Source of the DNA: an uncultured Flavobacteriales bacterium
GTDB taxonomy: Bacteria > Bacteroidota > Bacteroidia > Flavobacteriales_D > CAJJDF01
Length of the DNA: 43,173 bases
Direction: 5' to 3'
NCBI GenBank assembly: GCA_905182785.1
Contig: CAJJDF010000009.1
Coordinates: 1-43,173, forward strand
In this document: piece after piece, positions 7,872 to 43,173 of the stretch
Layout of the letters: the number at the start of each line of letters is the position of its first letter
How positions within the stretch are numbered: position 1 is the stretch's first letter
Program-made: the position numbers and the translations under genes
The notes under the pieces: generated by a model
Seen by the model: only the letters and a program-made list of their open reading frames with translations
Told to the model about the DNA's origin: nothing
Databases searched by the model: none

Positions 7872-9416
7872 ATGAAGTTTGTTAGATTGCTATTTCTGTT
7901 CTTTCCCTTTGTTTATTTAGGGCAAATTCCTAATTGTGTTCCTATACGTGGAGAGTATTTGTGGATGAGCGAAACGGAAGTGAGTAATCACAATTATCAT
8001 GTGTTTTTATCTTCTATTTCTGAAAAAGATAGTTTGAAAAACCTTCCAGATTCTGAAATGTGGAGTAAAAGATTTAGAGCTAAAATGCCAATGGAAAAGT
8101 ATTATTTTCATCATCCAGCTTATACAGATTATCCATTAGTAAACATTACCTACGAAAATGCAAAATCATATTGTAAATGGCTTACAGAAACTTTAAATCA
8201 CAATTTTCTAAATCAAAAAGTACTAGTTCGTTTACCAACTGAAAATGAATGGAAAGAGGCTGCAAAAGCAGGGAATAGATATGCTTTTTATCCTTGGGGA
8301 ACTCATTCTATGCGAATTGAGGAAGGAAAACATCAAGGGAGAATGAGAGCTAATTTCGTTAGGGGTAGAGGTGATTTCTTGGGTGTTTCTGGCAGATTAA
8401 ATGATAATGCTGATTTAACTGCTCCTGTAAACTCTTATTGGCCAAATGATTTTGGGCTTTACAACATGAGCGGGAATGTGAGTGAAATGGTTGCCGAAAA
8501 AGGATTGGTGAAAGGGGGAGGTTGGAGAAATAGAGCAGATTATTTAAGAATTGACAAGCAACAATATGTTTATTCTGCCTCGCCTGAAGTTGGATTTAGG
8601 TATGTTGTGGAAGTGATTGAAATACCTCAGCCTAAGAAAAAACCAAAACCTCTTAGTCTGAATAAAAAATTCTTTAAACAGTATTTTACTGAAATAAATG
8701 ACACACTTTCTTTTGGAAAATATGAGGTGACTAATGAATTATATAGAATGTATAAAGAAGATTTCATTAAAAATAAAGCTATTTATACAGAGTCAATCAA
8801 AGACTCTCTTTGGTTCGATTTATTTCCATACAGTCAGTTCTGGATGACGAACTACAGTTCTCATTCGAATTATAATAATTATCCAGCTGTAAATATTAAA
8901 TATTGGGAAGCCGAACAATTTGCCTTTTGGTTAGAGGTTAATTATGAACGCGTTTTCAATAAAAAAATTGAAATCCGCTTGCCGACATTACAAGAATGGG
9001 AATTAGCTGCAAGCGGGGGATTAAAAAACTCTTCTTATCCTTGGGGTGGTCCTTATGCTAGAAATTCAAACGGCTCGTTCTTGGCAAACCACAACCCAAA
9101 AATGAGTGAAAGCGAAAATGTGAATGGATATGATACTTTGTCTCTTAACAACTTTTTTCAAAATCACTTTACCGATTTAGAAGATTTTGACGGAGAGGCT
9201 GTTTTAGCTCCTGTTAATTCATATCATCCTAACGGATACGGATTATATAACATAGCTGGAAATGCTGCTGAAATGGTATTGGATTCTAATTATACAAAAG
9301 GTGGTTCTTGGAAAAGTAAAAGCTATTTCTTGCAAATAGATTCCAAAGAAGATTGGGACAAAGAAGCTAATCCTTTTACTGGGCTTAGGGTTGTAATGGT
9401 TAAAAAAGAGAATTAA
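7872..9416 (+). CDS. Exported protein with two tandem SUMF1 (formylglycine-generating-enzyme-like) domains
   Basis: 514 residues with an N-terminal signal peptide (about 17 residues, ending near YLGQ). Two SUMF1/FGE-sulfatase folds follow. Domain 1 (about 25-255) has RLPTENEWKEAAKAG, YPWG, YNMSGNVSEMV, KGGGWRN and VGFRYV. A linker PQPKKKPKP follows, then domain 2 (about 270-512) with IRLPTLQEWELAASGG, YPWG, YNIAGNAAEMV, KGGSW and TGLRVV. The cysteines of true formylglycine-generating enzymes are not in evidence, so a structural or binding role is more likely than sulfatase activation. In Bacteroidota such non-enzymatic copies include GldJ and GldK of gliding and type IX secretion, but those have one domain and no clear orthology is claimed. 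Its last 4 bp overlap the convergent Spy-like gene. Confidence 0.85.
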   Translation: MKFVRLLFLFFPFVYLGQIPNCVPIRGEYLWMSETEVSNHNYHVFLSSISEKDSLKNLPDSEMWSKRFRAKMPMEKYYFHHPAYTDYPLVNITYENAKSYCKWLTETLNHNFLNQKVLVRLPTENEWKEAAKAGNRYAFYPWGTHSMRIEEGKHQGRMRANFVRGRGDFLGVSGRLNDNADLTAPVNSYWPNDFGLYNMSGNVSEMVAEKGLVKGGGWRNRADYLRIDKQQYVYSASPEVGFRYVVEVIEIPQPKKKPKPLSLNKKFFKQYFTEINDTLSFGKYEVTNELYRMYKEDFIKNKAIYTESIKDSLWFDLFPYSQFWMTNYSSHSNYNNYPAVNIKYWEAEQFAFWLEVNYERVFNKKIEIRLPTLQEWELAASGGLKNSSYPWGGPYARNSNGSFLANHNPKMSESENVNGYDTLSLNNFFQNHFTDLEDFDGEAVLAPVNSYHPNGYGLYNIAGNAAEMVLDSNYTKGGSWKSKSYFLQIDSKEDWDKEANPFTGLRVVMVKKEN

Positions 9417-9868
9417 TTTCTCATTTTTTTTGGGCGTCTATTGTGAGGTGAGAATATTTTATGAAACTGTGTTGATAGCTCGTTAAATTTTTCTTTCTGC
9501 TCCTCTCTGCATATTTTTTTTATATTAGAAAAATGAATGATGTGCGCTTGCTCCATCTCTTCAAATTTATCTCCAATTAAATTAATTATTGAATCTTTAA
9601 ACACTTGGCTTTCATTGATAAATTCTTTGTATAAAATTATTTTATTCACCCTTATTTCTTTTTGTAAAGACATTATTGTGTTCCTGTCTTCAAGAATTAA
9701 AGTCCTGTATTCTTTTATTTGACTCTCGTCAAAATCGAGCTTCTCAATTATAATCTCTTTGGGCGATTTGTGGTTGCTTCTATTTGGGTTTCCAAAATAA
9801 AGAAAGGCCATTAATACTATATTTAATAGTACCAATAGGGCTGTAACTATTTTTGTTCTATTATTCAT
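9413..9868 (-). CDS. Membrane-anchored Spy/CpxP-like periplasmic protein of a sigma-factor operon
   Basis: 151 residues: one N-terminal membrane anchor (about 7-25), then a highly charged, all-helical periplasmic part. The late segment ICREEQKEKFNEL resembles the LTxxQ-type repeat of Spy/CpxP and heavy-metal-sensor proteins, which bind unfolded proteins or metal in the periplasm. The start overlaps the end of the anti-sigma gene by 8 bp, so translation is probably coupled. The order sigma, anti-sigma, Spy-like is a common Bacteroidota arrangement in which the third protein senses envelope state; that role is inferred here. Identification rests on composition and context more than a firm motif. 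Confidence 0.6.
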   Translation of the reverse strand: MNNRTKIVTALLVLLNIVLMAFLYFGNPNRSNHKSPKEIIIEKLDFDESQIKEYRTLILEDRNTIMSLQKEIRVNKIILYKEFINESQVFKDSIINLIGDKFEEMEQAHIIHFSNIKKICREEQKEKFNELSTQFHKIFSPHNRRPKKMRN

Positions 9869-10118
9869 ATCCTATAAATGTTGACTCGTTTATAGAGAAG
9901 GGATTAACCTCTTGGTTTGCTTTATTACTATTCTTTGTGTTGTTGTAAGTTGTTAATGTTCCTGCATTTACAAACAATAGGGCAAAGGCAAATACCAAGG
10001 CATAATTTCCGTTTCTTTTTTCTGTTATTCGTTTCGTTTCTATTTTATTTTTAATCCCTTCTAGTAAAGAGTCGGGGATAGAAACCTTTTCTATTTTATT
10101 TAAATAATCTTGTTCCAC
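9861..10118 (-). CDS. Small single-pass membrane protein, probable anti-sigma factor
   Basis: 85 residues: a charged cytoplasmic N-terminus (about 1-38, including IEKVSIPDSLLEGIKNKIE), one membrane segment (about 40-58) and a short periplasmic tail. It starts 3 bp after the sigma factor stop codon and overlaps the Spy-like gene by 8 bp. Size, topology and position fit an anti-sigma factor holding the ECF sigma at the membrane. There is no zinc-binding HxxxCxxC motif, so it is not a ZAS-type anti-sigma and the call depends on context. Confidence 0.55.
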   Translation of the reverse strand: MEQDYLNKIEKVSIPDSLLEGIKNKIETKRITEKRNGNYALVFAFALLFVNAGTLTTYNNTKNSNKANQEVNPFSINESTFIGYE

Positions 10119-10121
10119 TAT

Positions 10122-10619
10122 TTATAATTTTTCTTTTAACTTTTTTCTTGCTCTCGTTAATAATGATTCCACCGCTTTCTCATTCATTTTCATTACAGTT
10201 GCAATTTCTTTTTGTGGAATCCCTTCAATTGTTTTTAGAATTAAAGCCGTTTTTTGTTTTTCGGGCAACTTATTTATCTCTCTAAATATCTTCTCCATTT
10301 CCTCTTTACTTTCCAATTTAGCGCCAGGGTGATTAAAATCTTTACTGTCGTAATCTTCGTTTTCTCTAGTAAAAAATAATCTGTATTTTCTGTTTTTAGA
10401 TTTTATTACGTCTAAACAATGGTTTATTGTTATTCTGTATATCCATGTTTTTAGACTAGATTTATTATTAAATCCTTCTAACTTGGTGTGAATTTTTACA
10501 AAAACATCTTGGGTAGCCTCTTTTGAATCTTCTATGTTTTGTAAATAACTTAACGAAAGATTATAAACCAATTGTGAGAATTCGTTATAAATCTCAAGAA
10601 ATTGCTTTTCGTTTTTCAT
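10122..10619 (-). CDS. ECF-type RNA polymerase sigma factor
   Basis: 165 residues with the two ECF domains. Sigma-2 (about 8-75) includes LVYNLSLSYLQNIEDSKEATQDVF and the SLKTWIYRITINHCLD stretch of regions 2.3-2.4. A linker leads into sigma-4 (about 108-165) with LPEKQKTALILKTIEGIPQKEIA, then MNEKAVESLLTRARKKLKE, the helix-turn-helix that reads the -35 element. It is first in a three-gene operon with a probable membrane anti-sigma and a Spy-like protein, pointing to an envelope stress or metal signal. A housekeeping-type promoter lies at 10720-10748 with a leader of about 100 nt. The regulon cannot be read from this window. Confidence 0.92.
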   Translation of the reverse strand: MKNEKQFLEIYNEFSQLVYNLSLSYLQNIEDSKEATQDVFVKIHTKLEGFNNKSSLKTWIYRITINHCLDVIKSKNRKYRLFFTRENEDYDSKDFNHPGAKLESKEEMEKIFREINKLPEKQKTALILKTIEGIPQKEIATVMKMNEKAVESLLTRARKKLKEKL

Positions 10620-33563: not shown

Positions 33564-35816
33564 TTATTTGGATGAATTATCTCGCCTTCTTTTTCTATTT
33601 TTAAAAAATAAAAATAATGGAGTGAGGATAATAAGACTCATTATAGAAAAAAAACAAGTAAGAATAATGTTGTTGTTTTTATTACTTTCGGCTTGTTTTA
33701 AATTCATTTTATTTATTGTGCTCTGGTTTGTAGGAGTCCAATTGTGTTTAATTGTTGTGTTTACTAATTCAATTATATTTGAGTTATTTAATAGCGTTTC
33801 GTCTAAATAAACATAGTCTATAAACTCTTCTTCTGAAGAATATAACTCAATTTTATTTCTCTTTTTAATTTTAAAAAGTCCGAATTGAGAGTTTAATATT
33901 TCATTATTGCTTTGTGTCGTATCTTTAAAAAAAGTATAATAAGAGTGCGCTTGAATTAATGTATTCTCTTTAATTATAGTTTTCTTGTCGCCATTTATAA
34001 AAACCCAATTAGAAATATTAACGACAGAATCCGTTGCGTTAAATATTTCCAAATAGCTTGATAATAGGTTGTCCTTATAGCCAACTTCATTAATGAAAAT
34101 TTGATTTCTATATTTACTATTTCCTTTTTTTATAAAAAAAGCCGAAACCACGGTGTTGTTTTTTAAGCGTATTTTATCCGTTATGTTTATTGTATCATTT
34201 GACCAATGTGAAAATTCATAACCGAATTTTGGTTCGGCATTTAGCTTATAATTAATAGTGCTAAAATAGGTTCCAGTAAAACCAGAATCAACTTGGTAGC
34301 TATCAAAAAAAACAGATCCTTGATTTGAATTATGATTAAACTGAATAATAAAAGAGGAGTCTAGTTGAAATTTCTCTTTTAAAAAAGAAAATAAATAACC
34401 GGGTCTTCTTTCGGCAAAATCAATTATATAATTAACGTTATTTTCCCAGCCTGTTGGCTTTCTTTTCCATTTTCTAAAATGATAAGGGATCTCTGGCTTT
34501 AAATTGTTTGCTATTGCATTAATGTGGTTAACCACATTATCTGGTTTAAAAGTAGTGTTTAGGTAATGTGTGAATTTTTGAATATACCTTTTTTTTATTG
34601 ATTCGTTTTTTAATAATTTTCTGATTATCAGAGAAGACCAAGAAGGAAAAGGCCATAATTCTGAGCTGTATTCGGTAAATCTTATAAGCGTATTTTCCTC
34701 GACTCCATTCGTTTTTCTAAGGCCAAAACCAAAATCTGTATCGAACAAAATCCATCTCCATTTTGCTCCATATTTTCTTTCTCTCCAATATCTTATATTT
34801 CCTCCAGCGTCAATATTACTTATGTAAACCTGAGCAATATTGTAGTCTAAATAGTTGTCTATATCTATTAGTTTAGACAACTTAACCACATTAGAATCTT
34901 GTTTTAAATCAGATTTTTTAATGAATTTTAAAATTCTATTATAATTCAACCTTCCGTAATGTTGCACATCACTTCTGTGCTTCATAATTGCAATACTATC
35001 TTTATCTAATTTAAAGTGTTGCTTTATAAAGTGTTCGTTTATTTTTTCGCGAATATGGTAAATTCCCCAATAGTCTCCGTTCAGATAAACAATACACGAA
35101 CGATAGGCTTGTGTTTCAATATTAAAATTCTTAACCAAGCTAGTCATCATTATATCTCTAAAATGAGTACTACAAAAGTCAGAACCAGAATTTCTTAATA
35201 CAACTGATTTATATTTTTTAAACGGTAAATCCGGAAATAAAGGGTATTTAATTTTCTCTTTTCCGTATTTCTTTCTTGCATGAAGAGAAAAGGATTTTTG
35301 TGGCAACATAGCACTAAATTGTCCAAATATTTTAATTCCTAATTTTTGATTAAACCCTACTTTGTTGTTAGTATCAATAAACTCTAAATAAGCTGTTCTT
35401 TCCCAGTTTTTATGAAAGTTTGCTCCTTTATAGGGTGAGATTTTTGATGCATTTAGCCCTTTAACATATATGCCTTTTAAGGAGTCATAAAGATCTGAGG
35501 GTTTAACTGTTATACATATAATTGGTAAGTTTATTTTACGTCCTGGAAATAGAAAGTTCCTTGTATATCCTATTAAGGTATTTCTATTTTTAACTCTTAT
35601 TGTTGTTGATTTTTTTAGAGGTATTGGTTCTTTATATTCTATACTTGGATAATCTCCATTCTTAGAATAATAGATTTTATCCTTATTTAGGTTTGAAATA
35701 TTTAATAAAATAGAATCGCTATAAACTCCTGAAGTGTGTGAAAATATAATAGTATCCTTATTACTCTGAGAAATAGAATAACTGGTTACTATTAAGAAAC
35801 AGAACAGTAGTTTCAT
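33564..35816 (-). CDS. CotH kinase family surface protein with chitobiase-like, repeat and lamin-tail domains
   Basis: 750 residues. Signal peptide (about 1-17, ending SISQ); chitobiase/hexosaminidase C-terminal-like domain (about 22-90; SGVYSDSILLNISN, IYYSKNGDYPS); CotH domain (about 100-470) with WRWILFDTDFGFGLRK (about 355-370) carrying the kinase-like Asp residues; a divergent InlB-type repeat (about 490-565; GYEFSHWSND); a lamin-tail domain (about 570-690; INEVGYKDNLLSSYLEIFNA and ISNWVF). Near the C-terminus are a hydrophobic segment (about 717-737) and a basic tail KNRKRRRDNSSK. CotH proteins are known as secretory or spore-coat protein kinases; substrate unknown here. No type IX sorting domain is seen. 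Last in the row rpiB, M28 peptidase, CotH (33-bp gap). Confidence 0.85.
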   Translation of the reverse strand: MKLLFCFLIVTSYSISQSNKDTIIFSHTSGVYSDSILLNISNLNKDKIYYSKNGDYPSIEYKEPIPLKKSTTIRVKNRNTLIGYTRNFLFPGRKINLPIICITVKPSDLYDSLKGIYVKGLNASKISPYKGANFHKNWERTAYLEFIDTNNKVGFNQKLGIKIFGQFSAMLPQKSFSLHARKKYGKEKIKYPLFPDLPFKKYKSVVLRNSGSDFCSTHFRDIMMTSLVKNFNIETQAYRSCIVYLNGDYWGIYHIREKINEHFIKQHFKLDKDSIAIMKHRSDVQHYGRLNYNRILKFIKKSDLKQDSNVVKLSKLIDIDNYLDYNIAQVYISNIDAGGNIRYWRERKYGAKWRWILFDTDFGFGLRKTNGVEENTLIRFTEYSSELWPFPSWSSLIIRKLLKNESIKKRYIQKFTHYLNTTFKPDNVVNHINAIANNLKPEIPYHFRKWKRKPTGWENNVNYIIDFAERRPGYLFSFLKEKFQLDSSFIIQFNHNSNQGSVFFDSYQVDSGFTGTYFSTINYKLNAEPKFGYEFSHWSNDTINITDKIRLKNNTVVSAFFIKKGNSKYRNQIFINEVGYKDNLLSSYLEIFNATDSVVNISNWVFINGDKKTIIKENTLIQAHSYYTFFKDTTQSNNEILNSQFGLFKIKKRNKIELYSSEEEFIDYVYLDETLLNNSNIIELVNTTIKHNWTPTNQSTINKMNLKQAESNKNNNIILTCFFSIMSLIILTPLFLFFKNRKRRRDNSSK

Positions 35817-35849: not shown

Positions 35850-37358
35850 TTAATCAATTATTAATCTTGCCGGTTTATTTGCAACCTCCCAAGCAGTGTA
35901 GAATACCAGTTTAGTGATTTTTTCTACCTTATCAAACATTATTTTATCTATCTCATCAGTTGCTTTGTGATAATCTTCATGAACACCACTAAAATAAAAA
36001 ATAACTGGAATGCCTTTTTGTGCAAAATTATAGTGATCTGACCTATAATAAAATCTATTTGGATCGTTTTCTTCGTTAAACGTATAATCTAACTCTAAGT
36101 TAGAATATGTTTTATTTGCCGCTTCACTTACTTCGTGTAGTTCTCTACTTATTTTATCTGCTCCAATTAAGTAAACATAATTTGGATGTGTGTGGTTTTC
36201 ATCCAATCTACCAATCATATCAATATTTAAATCTACAATAGTATTTGATATAGGAAAAACAGGGTTTTCTGAATAATATTTAGATCCCAACAGACCTTTT
36301 TCTTCGCCCGATACGGGCATAATTAAAATACTCCTTTTTGGTCCATTCCCATCATTTTTAGCTTTTTGAAATGCCTCTGCTAATTCTAATAAAGCAACCG
36401 TTCCTGTTCCATCGTCATCTGCCCCATTATAAACTTCTCCGTTTTTTATACCTAAATGATCGTAGTGTGCGGTAAGTATTACAATTTCCTTTTTTAATTC
36501 TGGGTCAGTCCCTTCTACAAAGCCCAGAACATTACTTGTGTTTACAATGCCGTTTTTGTTTGTATAGTCTAACAAAAAGCTATTATAATTAGGTTGGTTA
36601 ATCAGGCTTGCTCCTGATTCTATACTAGTGATAACGTCTTTTTTTAATTCCTCAGAAATAAACAGAAATAATGTGTTCCCTTTTTCTTTTTTCTTCTTTT
36701 TTGGAACCAGTTTTAAAGAAGATTTATTTAAAAAATGATCTAGCCTTCTAAGGTTACTCCTAAAGTTTTTTGACGTAAATAAAACAGTTTTTACTCCTTT
36801 ATCTTTTGCTATTTGTAGTTTCTTTCTCCAGTTCCAGTTCTCGTAATTTTCTAGGGTATCAAGGCTAATTAATACTGTTTTTCCTTGGATTGATTTAGAT
36901 TTATAATCGTCTCTATTTTTATCAAAAATTCCATAATTCAAATCAATAATTTCATTTGTATTAACCTTAAATCCTTTCATGTTTATTAAGGAATTAAAAA
37001 AATAAAAATCTTTAGAAAACTCATACTTATTTCCATGTAGACTAATTTTTGCATCTGGGATAAATGTTTCTAATAAAGGAAAGTTTTGAAAATAACTTCC
37101 ATTATTTCCTGGAGCTATACCATCTTTTTTAAATTCATTTTTTAGGTATTCAGCAGTCATTATCTGACCTTTTTTTCCTGTTTCCCTTCCTTCATATTCG
37201 TCTGAAGCTATAACAGAAAGGTGTTGTTTTAACTCTTTAGCTGTAATTGAATTTGCATATTCCTCTACTTTCGGATTCTTTTTTATTTTATATGCGTTCT
37301 TATATACAGAACAAGAAAATGAAAAAAAGAATGCTGTTAGTAATAAGATATACTTCAT
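35850..37358 (-). CDS. M28 family zinc aminopeptidase-like lipoprotein
   Basis: 502 residues. Lipoprotein signal with lipobox FSFSC (Cys16). A PA-like insert lies at about 130-270. The M28 metal centre is complete: TAHYDHLG (about 295-302), GADDDGTGTVALLE (about 310-323), SGEEKGLLGS (catalytic and metal Glu), NLDMIGR-type Asp in LNIDMIGRLDEN, and RSDHYNFAQKGIPVIFY (last His). It probably releases N-terminal residues from peptides at the outer membrane or in the periplasm. Starts 2 bp after the rpiB stop and is followed by the CotH gene after 33 bp. Confidence 0.92.
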   Translation of the reverse strand: MKYILLLTAFFFSFSCSVYKNAYKIKKNPKVEEYANSITAKELKQHLSVIASDEYEGRETGKKGQIMTAEYLKNEFKKDGIAPGNNGSYFQNFPLLETFIPDAKISLHGNKYEFSKDFYFFNSLINMKGFKVNTNEIIDLNYGIFDKNRDDYKSKSIQGKTVLISLDTLENYENWNWRKKLQIAKDKGVKTVLFTSKNFRSNLRRLDHFLNKSSLKLVPKKKKKEKGNTLFLFISEELKKDVITSIESGASLINQPNYNSFLLDYTNKNGIVNTSNVLGFVEGTDPELKKEIVILTAHYDHLGIKNGEVYNGADDDGTGTVALLELAEAFQKAKNDGNGPKRSILIMPVSGEEKGLLGSKYYSENPVFPISNTIVDLNIDMIGRLDENHTHPNYVYLIGADKISRELHEVSEAANKTYSNLELDYTFNEENDPNRFYYRSDHYNFAQKGIPVIFYFSGVHEDYHKATDEIDKIMFDKVEKITKLVFYTAWEVANKPARLIID

Positions 37359-37360
37359 AA

Positions 37361-37783
37361 TTAAATTTTATTTACTCTTCTTTCGTGTCTTCCTCCTTCA
37401 AACTTGGTGTTAATAAATGTCTCTACAATTTGTAATGCTAAATTTTCTGATATAAAACGAGCAGGAATTGCTAATACATTTGCATTATTATGTTCCCTTG
37501 CTAATTTGCAAATTTCTGTATTCCAGCATAGTGCACTTCTTACATCTTTGTATTTATTTACAGTCATATTAATCCCATTTCCACTTCCGCAAATAGCGAT
37601 TCCCATGCTATAATCTTTATTTTGAATAGCGTTTCCTACCTTATGCGCATAATCGGGATAATCAACACTATCTTCTGAAAACGGTCCAATATCTTCAAAT
37701 CCAATGTTTTTTTCTTTAAGAATAACTTTAATTTTTTCTTTTAAATCATACCCTGCATGATCAGATCCTAATACAAAATTCAT
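37361..37783 (-). CDS. rpiB: Ribose-5-phosphate isomerase B
   Basis: 140 residues; interconverts ribose-5-phosphate and ribulose-5-phosphate in the pentose phosphate pathway. The RpiB/LacAB motifs are clear: GSDHAGYDLKE (about 6-16), DYPDYAHKVG (about 41-50), AICGSGNGINMTVNK (catalytic Cys65 and phosphate loop), LCWNTEICKLAREHNNANVL (about 85-104) and the terminal FEGGRHERRV. Full length. First gene of a three-gene row; two 12-bp direct repeats lie 32-64 bp upstream. Confidence 0.96.
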   Translation of the reverse strand: MNFVLGSDHAGYDLKEKIKVILKEKNIGFEDIGPFSEDSVDYPDYAHKVGNAIQNKDYSMGIAICGSGNGINMTVNKYKDVRSALCWNTEICKLAREHNNANVLAIPARFISENLALQIVETFINTKFEGGRHERRVNKI

Positions 37784-38394: not shown

Positions 38395-39930
38395 ATGAAA
38401 AATAAAAGTAAAAATATAATTTTAATTACAGCATTGGTTTTTGTCTGCCATAGTTTTTATTCACAAAATATTAACCCAAACGGGTTCAATACTTTTCGGT
38501 ATGAAAATGATTCAATTTCGGCTGAAGGGTTTTTAAAAAACGGAAAACCAAACGGTTATTGGAAGAACTACGAAAAAAATGGATTAATAAAATCAGAGGG
38601 AAATCGAAAATTTTTTATGCTTGATAGCACTTGGAAATTCTACAAAAAAGGGTTTTTAAAAGAAGTTGTTAACTACGAAAAAAATAAAAGAAATGGAGAT
38701 TTTTTAGAATTTATAGATTCTGGTTTAATTTACTCTAAATCAGTATATAAAAACGACACATTACAAGGAGAACAAAAAAAATATTATTCTTCAGGAGAAT
38801 TACAATTTTTGTATTTCTATTTGAATGGGAATTACCACGGAAAAGCATATGAACTTGATAAAGACTCTGTTGTTATTTCAATTTTTAATTACAATAAAGG
38901 AAAACTTATTAGAAGAGAAAAGATAAATAGATTTGACCGAAATAATAATAAAACGGGAGTATGGAAAAAATATAGTGCAAGTGGTATTTTAATTGAAGAA
39001 GGAGCTTACAAAAACGGAAAAAAAAACGGAATATTTAAACAATATAAATATAATGGTGAGCTTAATGAATTAAAAAAATACAATATGAATGAACTAAAGC
39101 AAGATGCTGAAGAACTTAAATTTGTAGAACTATATAAAGAATATTATTCAACAGGTGAATTACATTTCACAATTGCAAAAAATAATAATAGAAAAAGACA
39201 AGGAATAACACAAGAATATAAAAAAAATGGAGATGTAATTATTACAAAAATTTTTAAGAATGACACTTTATTTGCAGAAGGAATAATTGATAAAGAAGGG
39301 TTAAGACAAGAAAAATGGAAGTTTTATTACGAAGGAGAAAAAATAATAGGAAAAGGAAAATATAACAATGACCGAAAAACAGGCACATGGTACTATTATT
39401 ATAGAACTGGAGAATTAGAGCAAGAAGGAAAATTTAATAAAGGAAATCATTCAGGAAAATGGGTGTGGTATTACAAACATAAATCAAAACATAGAGAAGA
39501 ATATTACCGAAACGGAAAAGAAGATGGTGAATTTATAGAATACAGTGAAGAAGGAAAAATTTTAACAAAAGGGGATTATTTAAATGGATTTAAAGACGGG
39601 AATTGGTTTTACCAGGTTGGAGATCATACTGAAATTGGAAAGTATAGTGATGGAGAAAAAGAAGGAGAATGGCTTCATTATTACGACAATAAGCAAATTT
39701 ATTTTAAAGGAAAATATAAAAATGGTAAACCCGTAGAAAAACATAATTATTATCATTATAACGGAAATAAAAAATGGATTGGAAATTATAATCTTGGAAA
39801 AAAGGAAGGAAAATGGGTTCGATATAACGAAAATGGAGAAATACTAGTTATATTTATTTATAGAAATAATGTTTTGATAAAAACAGACGGAAAAAAAATA
39901 AAACCGGCATTTAAAGAAGAGATAGAATAA
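38395..39930 (+). CDS. Exported long MORN-type (YwqK-like) repeat protein
   Basis: 511 residues with a signal peptide (about 1-24, ending SFYSQ). The whole mature part is a chain of about 20 short Tyr/Gly/Lys-rich repeats such as NGKPNGYWKNYEKNG, YKNGKKNGIFKQYKYNG, DRKTGTWYYYYRTGELEQEG and LGKKEGKWVRYNENGEI. These are MORN_2-type units, the same class as the 322-residue protein at 13222-14190 but longer and more regular. Composition is extreme (Lys, Asn, Tyr, Glu). It is flanked by AT-rich gaps, with its own terminator right after the stop codon, so it is a single-gene unit. Function unknown. Confidence 0.82.
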   Translation: MKNKSKNIILITALVFVCHSFYSQNINPNGFNTFRYENDSISAEGFLKNGKPNGYWKNYEKNGLIKSEGNRKFFMLDSTWKFYKKGFLKEVVNYEKNKRNGDFLEFIDSGLIYSKSVYKNDTLQGEQKKYYSSGELQFLYFYLNGNYHGKAYELDKDSVVISIFNYNKGKLIRREKINRFDRNNNKTGVWKKYSASGILIEEGAYKNGKKNGIFKQYKYNGELNELKKYNMNELKQDAEELKFVELYKEYYSTGELHFTIAKNNNRKRQGITQEYKKNGDVIITKIFKNDTLFAEGIIDKEGLRQEKWKFYYEGEKIIGKGKYNNDRKTGTWYYYYRTGELEQEGKFNKGNHSGKWVWYYKHKSKHREEYYRNGKEDGEFIEYSEEGKILTKGDYLNGFKDGNWFYQVGDHTEIGKYSDGEKEGEWLHYYDNKQIYFKGKYKNGKPVEKHNYYHYNGNKKWIGNYNLGKKEGKWVRYNENGEILVIFIYRNNVLIKTDGKKIKPAFKEEIE

Positions 39931-40554: not shown

Positions 40555-40585
40555 ATAAAAAAAGGATTAAACTTAGTTTTTTTAT
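40555..40585. terminator. Possible bidirectional terminator
   Basis: ATAAAAAAA (40555-40563) and TTTTTTTAT (40577-40585) can pair across 13 bases between the convergent TerB-like and PKD genes, and overlap the stop codon of the latter. The stem is pure A/T and weak. Confidence 0.25.
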
Positions 40586-43173
40586 CTAATAAGCGTAACA
40601 TGACCCTTTTTATAATGGCTATTTCCTATGTTATCTTTTGCTTGAATTACAAAAATATAAACCCCAATAGGGCAATTTTTTCCATTGTGTTTTCCATTCC
40701 ATCCTTCTGTTTCATCACTAGTTTCGAAAATAAGTTCTCCCGACCTACTGAATATTTTTAAATGAAAATCATTTATTTCATATCCTTTTACTATAAATAA
40801 TTTATTAAAATCCTTGTCAGGAGTAAAAGCATTGGGAGCATATAAAGTGAATTCATCTTTTACATAAATAGTTTGAGAAGTAGAATCGACACAACCAAAA
40901 GCAGAATAAGCATACAGAACTGTTGTGTAATAACCTACAATATTTGGAAACATATGTGTTGGAAAATCATCAGTGGCAGTTGTTCCATCTCCAAAATCCC
41001 AAAAATAACTTAAGGCTCCATTAGTTTTATTATCAAAAAACACTTCTGGTCTAAAAACAGAAACAACAGACGGAGCTGTTAAAAAATCAGCAATAGGTTT
41101 TTGATAAATAATAAGCGGAGCAAGTAAAGAATCGTAAAACACACAACCATCACTAGAAGTTGTTTTTAGTTTTATAGTATAACTACCAGCAGAATCAAAA
41201 AAATGAGAAGGGTTTTGAATAAAAGCCTTGTGTCCACAACCAAAGGTCCATTCCCAACTTACAATAGTTGTAGGAGGCACAATGACCGAACTGTCATAAA
41301 AAACAACTGTTTCATCCTCGCAATACCCAAAAAACTGTGGACCATAATTGAAAGCAGGAACAGGCAAATAAGAAACTAAAATAGTCGTATCATTCAAACA
41401 ACCATGAACAGAAGTAATGGTTAATTTCACACTATAACTTTGTGTATTTCCAAGATATTGGTGATTAGGATTTTGTAAAGATGAATTAGTTCCATCTCCA
41501 AATTCCCAATACCACGCAACAATAGAATCGGGAGATTGTATTGTAGAAACATCTTTAAAAGAAATAGTATTCCCTACACAAACCGAATTATAAGTGAAGC
41601 CAACAACAGACTCAGTGTTTATTGTAAGGTTTTTAGAAATAACATCATTACACCCCGAATCACTAGTCACCTGTAAGTTTACCAGGTAAGTACCGGGCGA
41701 ACCATATGCATTAAATGGATTTTTAAGAGTATCGGCATTTCCGTCTCCAAAACTCCAATTCCATTGAGAAATAGACCCGACAGAAATAGTAGATGAATCA
41801 TAAAAATTAGTAGGAAAACCGAGACAAATATTTTTTGTAAAGTCAAATTTTGCAACCGGTAAAGCATTTACCACAACACTACTTGAATCCGTATCTATAC
41901 ATCCTTGATTAGAAATAATTGATAAAGCAACTCTATAAACTCCAGAAGATGCATATGTGTGAATAGGATTATTTATACCAGAAGTATTTCCGTCACCAAA
42001 AACCCAAGAGGTATTAATTATTGCGGCACCAGAAGAAGTTGAGTTATTTACAAACTGAACAGAAGTTCCTTCACAAATAGGAGTAGAAACCACGAAAGAA
42101 GCATCAACACCACCAAATACGGTAATGTATTTTATAGACTGTGCTTCACATCCATTTACACCACCTTTTATGTTTAAAGTAGCTGTATACAACCCTGCTG
42201 TTGCATATACATGAGTTACTGAAGAGCCAGACGTACTGTCGACAGGAGAAAAGTCTCCAAAATTCCATTTCCAAAACCCAGGAGCTCCAGAAGATGCATC
42301 ATTAAAAGTTGTTGCTAAACCAACACAAACAGTATCATGAGTAAAGTCAGCAAAAGGGATTGAGTTTACCAGAACAGGTTTTGTAATACTGCTATCACAA
42401 CCTCCATTATTTGTAACTGTTAATGTAACAAGATAAACACCTGGTGTTGCATAAGTATAAGACGGATTATTTACAATAGAAGAGTTTCCATCCCCAAAGT
42501 CCCAAAAATAAGAGGTTATTGGTTGAATATTTGTTGTAAGGTTATTAAACATCATACCACCCCCAATACAAATTGTATCTGCAGTAAAGTTTGGAACAGG
42601 AATAGAATTAACAAAAATTACATGAGAAATGGTATCTGAACAACCAGAGACATTTGAAACAATAAGTGTTATAGTATAATTTCCTGTAGCTGTATAAATA
42701 TGAGTAGGGTTTTGAATAGCAGCAATATTTCCATCACCAAAACTCCAATTCCAAGCACTTGGTGTTCCTGAACTAGAATCGGTAAAATTTATTACTCTTC
42801 CCACACAAGCCAAAGAAGAATGAAATTGAGCAGAAACAATTGGTAAAACTAATATCGTTTTACTTGAACTGTCGCTACACCCAAAAGGTGTTTTTACGTT
42901 AAGAATGGCCCTAAAACTACTATCAACACCATAAACATGAGTAGGATTTTGAACTGTAGAAGTGTTTCCATCTCCAAAACTCCAATCCCACGATAAGTTC
43001 GATCCAGAAGATAAATCAGTAAATAAAGTAGGGTTATTCAAACAAATAGTATCTGCCATAAAGGTTGAAACAGGGTTTGGCAGTACAATTACTGTGTCGT
43101 AAAAATCACTAATACAACCAAAGCTATTTTTTACTTGCAGTTTTATTTGAAACAAACCAGCAGCTGTATATAC
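40582..43173 (-). CDS. PKD-repeat surface protein with type B T9SS sorting domain (5' end beyond window)
   Basis: At least 863 codons are open to the window edge; the true start lies beyond 43173. The visible part has nine complete PKD domains of about 80-95 residues, each with a W-x-FGDG motif, an NP-x-H-x-Y turn and a final GC, plus the tail of another at the edge. The C-terminal 85 residues are a gliding-motility-associated (CHU_C, type B) sorting domain: LYAPNAFTPDKDFNKLFIV, FSRSGELIFET, GWNGKHNG and GVYIFVIQAKD. The protein is therefore exported by the type IX system to the cell surface or medium. Repeat 8 has FGCG in place of FGDG. A role in adhesion or gliding is inferred. Confidence 0.9.
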   Translation of the reverse strand, partial: VYTAAGLFQIKLQVKNSFGCISDFYDTVIVLPNPVSTFMADTICLNNPTLFTDLSSGSNLSWDWSFGDGNTSTVQNPTHVYGVDSSFRAILNVKTPFGCSDSSSKTILVLPIVSAQFHSSLACVGRVINFTDSSSGTPSAWNWSFGDGNIAAIQNPTHIYTATGNYTITLIVSNVSGCSDTISHVIFVNSIPVPNFTADTICIGGGMMFNNLTTNIQPITSYFWDFGDGNSSIVNNPSYTYATPGVYLVTLTVTNNGGCDSSITKPVLVNSIPFADFTHDTVCVGLATTFNDASSGAPGFWKWNFGDFSPVDSTSGSSVTHVYATAGLYTATLNIKGGVNGCEAQSIKYITVFGGVDASFVVSTPICEGTSVQFVNNSTSSGAAIINTSWVFGDGNTSGINNPIHTYASSGVYRVALSIISNQGCIDTDSSSVVVNALPVAKFDFTKNICLGFPTNFYDSSTISVGSISQWNWSFGDGNADTLKNPFNAYGSPGTYLVNLQVTSDSGCNDVISKNLTINTESVVGFTYNSVCVGNTISFKDVSTIQSPDSIVAWYWEFGDGTNSSLQNPNHQYLGNTQSYSVKLTITSVHGCLNDTTILVSYLPVPAFNYGPQFFGYCEDETVVFYDSSVIVPPTTIVSWEWTFGCGHKAFIQNPSHFFDSAGSYTIKLKTTSSDGCVFYDSLLAPLIIYQKPIADFLTAPSVVSVFRPEVFFDNKTNGALSYFWDFGDGTTATDDFPTHMFPNIVGYYTTVLYAYSAFGCVDSTSQTIYVKDEFTLYAPNAFTPDKDFNKLFIVKGYEINDFHLKIFSRSGELIFETSDETEGWNGKHNGKNCPIGVYIFVIQAKDNIGNSHYKKGHVTLIR

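Follow-up and report, generated by a model that had tools for sequence, protein, structure and literature searches.

The CotH-family protein encoded at positions 33564–35816 on the reverse strand of the window (the whole 43,173-nucleotide stretch analysed here, contig C9 of a 2.32-Mb Flavobacteriales genome in 73 contigs) is, as judged from its sequence, an exported kinase-like protein that probably ends in an ordinary membrane anchor. In the reading that we consider best, with a probability of roughly 0.6, the protein is a single-pass protein of the inner membrane with type I orientation, and its periplasmic CotH domain is most likely a Ser/Thr kinase. Its topology and placement in the inner membrane are what we infer, as are activity, substrates and phosphate donor: Sec export would proceed through the N-terminal signal peptide until the C-terminal helix halts transfer, leaving the basic tail in the cytoplasm and hence placing the chitobiase-like, CotH, InlB-like and lamin-tail domains in the periplasm. 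There, the CotH domain would most likely phosphorylate Ser/Thr residues on exported proteins or on components of the envelope, much as Fam20C acts in the Golgi.

The gene begins with ATG and encodes 750 residues. A signal peptide without a lipobox was read from the sequence at approximately residues 1–17 (MKLLFCFLIVTSYSISQ; 35766–35816, reverse strand; putative cleavage site). By eye, no lipobox cysteine follows it at the N-terminus MKLLFCFLIVTSYSISQSNKD, and the N-termini are alike across the 20 members of our alignment (window protein included). The multi-domain layout proposed in the first-pass annotation is present: Pfam searches place a chitobiase-like domain (CHB_HEX_C_1) at residues 28–77 (27.6 bits, cut-off 22), the CotH kinase domain (PF08757) at residues 161–475 (34392–35336, reverse strand; 189.2 bits, cut-off 23.8) and a lamin tail domain (LTD) at residues 569–669 (33810–34112, reverse strand), the last scoring just over its cut-off (34.6 versus 34.3 bits) and also recovered as a lamin Ig fold aligning to the model at Z 10.8. 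The InlB-like repeat (Flg_new_2) is weak and lies under its cut-off (19.9 versus 23.6 bits). PF08757 and LTD are each matched by all 20 aligned members at E ≤ 0.01, the LTD check having covered 20 of the 26 proteins compared below (window protein plus relatives) together with L035, with L017, L022, L025, L026 and L028 outside it.

The C-terminus consists of IILTCFFSIMSLIILTPLF followed by LFFKNRKRRRDNSSK, and thus displays the hydrophobic stretch and basic end that had been noticed at first pass. The hydrophobic segment spans 19 residues (717–735; 33612–33668, reverse strand) with a mean Kyte–Doolittle value of 2.42, the best segment within residues 46–680 reaching 0.87; the tail LFFKNRKRRRDNSSK (33567–33611, reverse strand), predicted to be cytoplasmic, carries a net charge of +6. 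In an AlphaFold model built from the 20 aligned members (mean pLDDT 82.9), one helix of middling confidence (10-residue means of 70–77) occupies residues 706–741, and confidence falls below 50 at residues 743–750. Hydropathy and model together match the type I single-pass pattern: N-terminal signal, one C-terminal helix and positive tail.

This terminus is shared by the closest relatives. When the window protein was compared with the 25 distinct relatives nearest to it among the matches listed (after dropping L003, a copy of the window, and L006, a copy of L034, and leaving out a split gene in G101), 24 of the 26 proteins ended in a lone hydrophobic helix, which stays hydrophobic in these 24 while its sequence diverges. 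The two exceptions are L026, which is truncated, and L035, which keeps the helix (residues 740–758) and continues into a fused protein; our script scored the latter as lacking a helix, since the 45 residues at its end come from the fusion partner. In the source genome, a survey of chosen stretches plus the window took in 852,065 of 2,321,485 bases (37%) and missed ORFs cut by stretch ends; among the 584 ORFs there that reach 150 residues, only 5, window protein counted, have a lone C-terminal hydrophobic segment at a threshold of our own. A feature present in 5 of 584 genomic ORFs, yet in 24 of the 26 proteins made up of the window protein and its closest relatives among the matches listed, is therefore not there by chance. 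Gene and tail are also kept in all six genomes of the window's family.

The membrane side of the tail is indicated by charge and by the fused protein. All 20 aligned members carry a net positive charge (+2 to +7) beyond the helix, and in 17 of them this charge exceeds that of the 15 residues before it, with one tie and two in which the larger charge lies before the helix; L028, which lies outside this set, ends in NLANYIGRDIT with no net charge. In L035 (4995–7991, forward strand), the CotH helix runs in frame through a basic linker and a second signal-peptide-like segment into a further protein, whose counterpart in L060 has its own gene immediately downstream (L060:9995–10669). If the fused part is exported like its free L060 relative, then the CotH helix must end on the cytoplasmic side, subject to the fusion coming from one MAG, in which a sequence error is possible. 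The fused protein bears a signal peptide and is barrel-like by eye, and its L060 counterpart matches no Pfam family at E ≤ 0.01. From conservation, charge and the L035 fusion we infer the stop-transfer arrangement that the first-pass annotation had suggested, with the kinase-like domain in the periplasm. Its C-terminal helix probably keeps the window protein in the inner membrane, and since the closest relatives among the matches listed share this feature, the end resembles a common membrane anchor more than a tag for sorting.

The kinase assignment draws on both fold and active-site residues. The model superimposes on Bacillus cereus CotH (5jd9/5jda) with Z 33.2 and an r.m.s.d. of 2.2–2.3 over 328–329 aligned residues, far above the next row, PI4KIIα (Z 13.2); 4kqa, a Golgi casein kinase, is a weak match (Z 10.1), tied with PI3K and HipA rows. 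This CotH match in the PDB came via structure and via a lipoprotein paralog of the source genome: by sequence, the window protein alone retrieved nothing at E ≤ 10, and a search with the alignment gave two matches, both to the chitobiase-like region. Among 41 aligned CotH sequences, D336 and D359 are kept in all 41 and E257 in 40; the DTD residues that had been called conserved at first pass are indeed so, D359 without exception and D361 in 38 of 41. Bacillus subtilis CotH, which works in the spore coat, is a Ser/Thr kinase whose D228Q and D251A forms are reported to be inactive, and Fam20C, the Golgi casein kinase of the secretory pathway, is described as its distant relative, all according to an excerpt of PMC7821199. 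D336 and D359 are spaced by 23 residues, exactly as are D228 and D251 of the B. subtilis protein, and an equivalent Asp pair is seen when the lipoprotein CotH of the source genome (L063) is aligned to 5jd9. Indirectly, through this spacing and the L063–5jd9 alignment, D336 and D359 would be the counterparts of D228 and D251 and the likely catalytic Asp pair. Given the fold match and the invariant Asp pair, the kinase site of the window protein is probably intact. The protein differs from Bacillus CotH in being exported, and in carrying chitobiase-like, InlB-like and lamin-tail domains together with a membrane helix.

The same type I anchor might instead carry a CotH domain that is not a protein kinase in vivo, using a different donor or reaction (AMPylation, say, or the phosphorylation of a lipid or glycan) or serving chiefly, together with the lamin-tail and InlB-like domains, as a scaffold for binding. 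This is possible, at odds well short of even. The general view is that the periplasm contains no ATP, in which case a kinase located there would have to use a different donor or have a different activity; the resemblance of the fold to lipid kinases such as PI4KIIα points the same way. Against this stand the invariance of both Asp residues, the Ser/Thr kinase activity ascribed to B. subtilis CotH in the PMC7821199 excerpt, and the distance by which 5jd9/5jda outscore every other row.

That the tripartite end is a sorting signal, near whose helix an exosortase-, sortase- or rhombosortase-like enzyme would cut to send the protein surface-ward, is improbable. PEP-CTERM, LPXTG and GlyGly-CTERM tails have the same layout of a helix plus a basic tail, and a few members give weak matches to sorting-tail models: GG_III-CTERM in 3 of 20 (best E 0.0027), LPXTG_anchor in 2 of 20 (best E 0.007) and Loki-CTERM in 1 of 20 (E 0.12), the first two of which we take to be what helix-plus-basic tails give. 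Unlike proteins with these tails, the 20 aligned members have no shared pre-helix motif, as none of their columns after W693 is invariant or nearly so. Nor was an exosortase or sortase detected in the source genome, where Exosortase_EpsH (PF09721) and sortase (PF04203), models run against this genome only, had no match at E ≤ 1 and the exosortase models TIGR04178 (exo_archaeo) and TIGR04128 (XrtF) none at E ≤ 0.01. Exo_archaeo does match in 14 of 24 gene-carrying genomes, and XrtF is over its cut-off in only 4, but 10 carriers match neither (one of them, G104, being only 74% complete), and these 10 include all six genomes of the window's family. Since the family genomes keep the tail, it persists where no such enzyme is detected. 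Rhombosortase is over its cut-off in none of the 24 genomes, and weaker matches to it turn up in all 24 and likewise in each of 14 controls, a pattern to be expected from ordinary rhomboids.

A sorting enzyme would also be expected, in the first-pass annotation's reasoning, to serve other proteins with the same tail, and the survey of 37% of the genome revealed no such group. Only one other surveyed protein (L080:3264–4985) combines such a segment with a hydrophobic N-terminus and a tail that is clearly basic; it is an ABC_transp_aux protein, presumably of GldG type, and so gives no sign of a shared tag; a further one with a hydrophobic N-terminus (L090:11061–11621) is lipoprotein-like, its terminal segment being followed by KN only. 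The sorting-enzyme interpretation of the tail thus finds neither an exosortase or sortase in the source genome nor companion proteins in the surveyed part.

The ends of the tails merit a separate remark. Five other members of the window's family (L044–L048) end in RxxSSTE or RGATE, and the window protein, whose corresponding end lies at 33567–33590, has NSSK instead; a conserved motif may be present at the C-terminus of the tail. For the RxxSSTE/RGATE ends, an overlap with the start codon of a following gene was considered and rejected, because the next gene of at least 80 residues is convergent in 5 of 6 family loci; in L044 no such gene is visible before the contig end.

That the helix is a roleless tail, free to decay, is very improbable: the tail letters do vary, and the reading frames of L026 and G101:C28:45150–47259 are truncated or split, but the helix remains hydrophobic in 24 of 26 proteins among the matches listed despite sequence divergence.

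The C-terminal anchor had initially been described as standing in place of a T9SS tag. The source genome is rich in such tags (70 matches to TIGR04183 over cut-off), and T9SS domains (TIGR04183, TIGR04131, CHU_C) are absent from the window protein, with no match to these models at E ≤ 1 in the 20 aligned members. As history, however, the replacement is not borne out by a quick tree of 41 CotH sequences, in which eight rows without the helix form one branch (support 96). Four of these (L037, L039, L041 and L042) have a T9SS domain over cut-off and two (L040 and L043) have no match; L036 is cut off by a contig end, and L038, identical to L039 in the CotH region, was left out of the T9SS scan. 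The four tagged proteins resemble the window protein in their CotH domain (~30–32% identity) but are longer (1163–1508 residues) and end in TIGR04183 domains over cut-off. Because their branch is distinct, there is no sign that the window protein ever exchanged a T9SS tag for its helix. The helix label requires 4 changes on this tree against a shuffled mean of 10.6, the root being set by midpoint only and 13 of 37 inner forks being open; a second helix-ending group (L029, L030, L032 and L033) has proteins of ~635 residues.

T9SS tags, lipoprotein anchors and C-terminal helices all occur among CotH proteins of relatives. A survey of 30 CotH loci scored the longest frame of each, which in several was not the CotH gene. 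The two other CotH proteins of the source genome are, by eye, tandem lipoproteins (L063:7808–9142 and 9162–10502, reverse strand); they share with the window protein a CotH domain over cut-off, but differ in having a lipobox cysteine by eye, no C-terminal helix and no lamin-tail match. This pair adjoins a 241-residue protein with a signal peptide by eye. Within the window itself, 40582–43155 (reverse strand) encodes an 857-residue protein that combines PKD repeats with a type B T9SS sorting domain (TIGR04131, at 44.6 bits over a cut-off of 35), and a GldK/GldJ-like protein at 7872–9416 (forward strand) scores 257 bits, under the GldK cut-off of 350, and is perhaps a divergent paralog.

The CotH gene is the third in a probable operon. 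Upstream of it, across a 33-base gap, lies its probable operon partner, an M28-family peptidase that is a lipoprotein by eye (35850–37358, reverse strand), preceded by an rpiB-type isomerase (LacAB_rpiB; 37361–37783, reverse strand) which, by Pfam and gene order, is the probable first gene. All six loci of the window's family keep the order rpiB, M28, CotH, two of them with an extra gene inserted before CotH, the L045 copy of which matches PMT_2. Across 20 loci, the rpiB cluster is found in 11, MORN in 10 and M28 in 8; five have two further genes upstream, one sigma-factor-like by eye and the other bearing a CHU_C domain in L055, the single copy examined. A MORN-repeat protein is encoded divergently from the operon in the window (38395–39930, forward strand). 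Gene neighbors were considered as a clue to substrates, and in these 20 loci none points to any.

Among the matches listed in a search of the open-access literature, no paper had a title concerning a membrane-anchored CotH of the Bacteroidota. Tentatively, and at rather long odds, the protein may represent an order-wide, inner-membrane-tethered kinase that phosphorylates exported periplasmic proteins in Gram-negatives, a bacterial counterpart of Fam20C. Fam20C is eukaryotic and acts in a lumen supplied with ATP; its bacterial counterpart, if real, would require an unrecognized phosphate donor or an ATP supply outside the cytoplasm. Exported bacterial kinase-fold proteins pose the question of which substrates and which donor they use, and a conserved, anchored CotH would direct the search for both to the side of the inner membrane that faces the periplasm. 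Even in a genome rich in T9SS tags, moreover, a tail made of a helix and basic residues need not imply a sorting enzyme.
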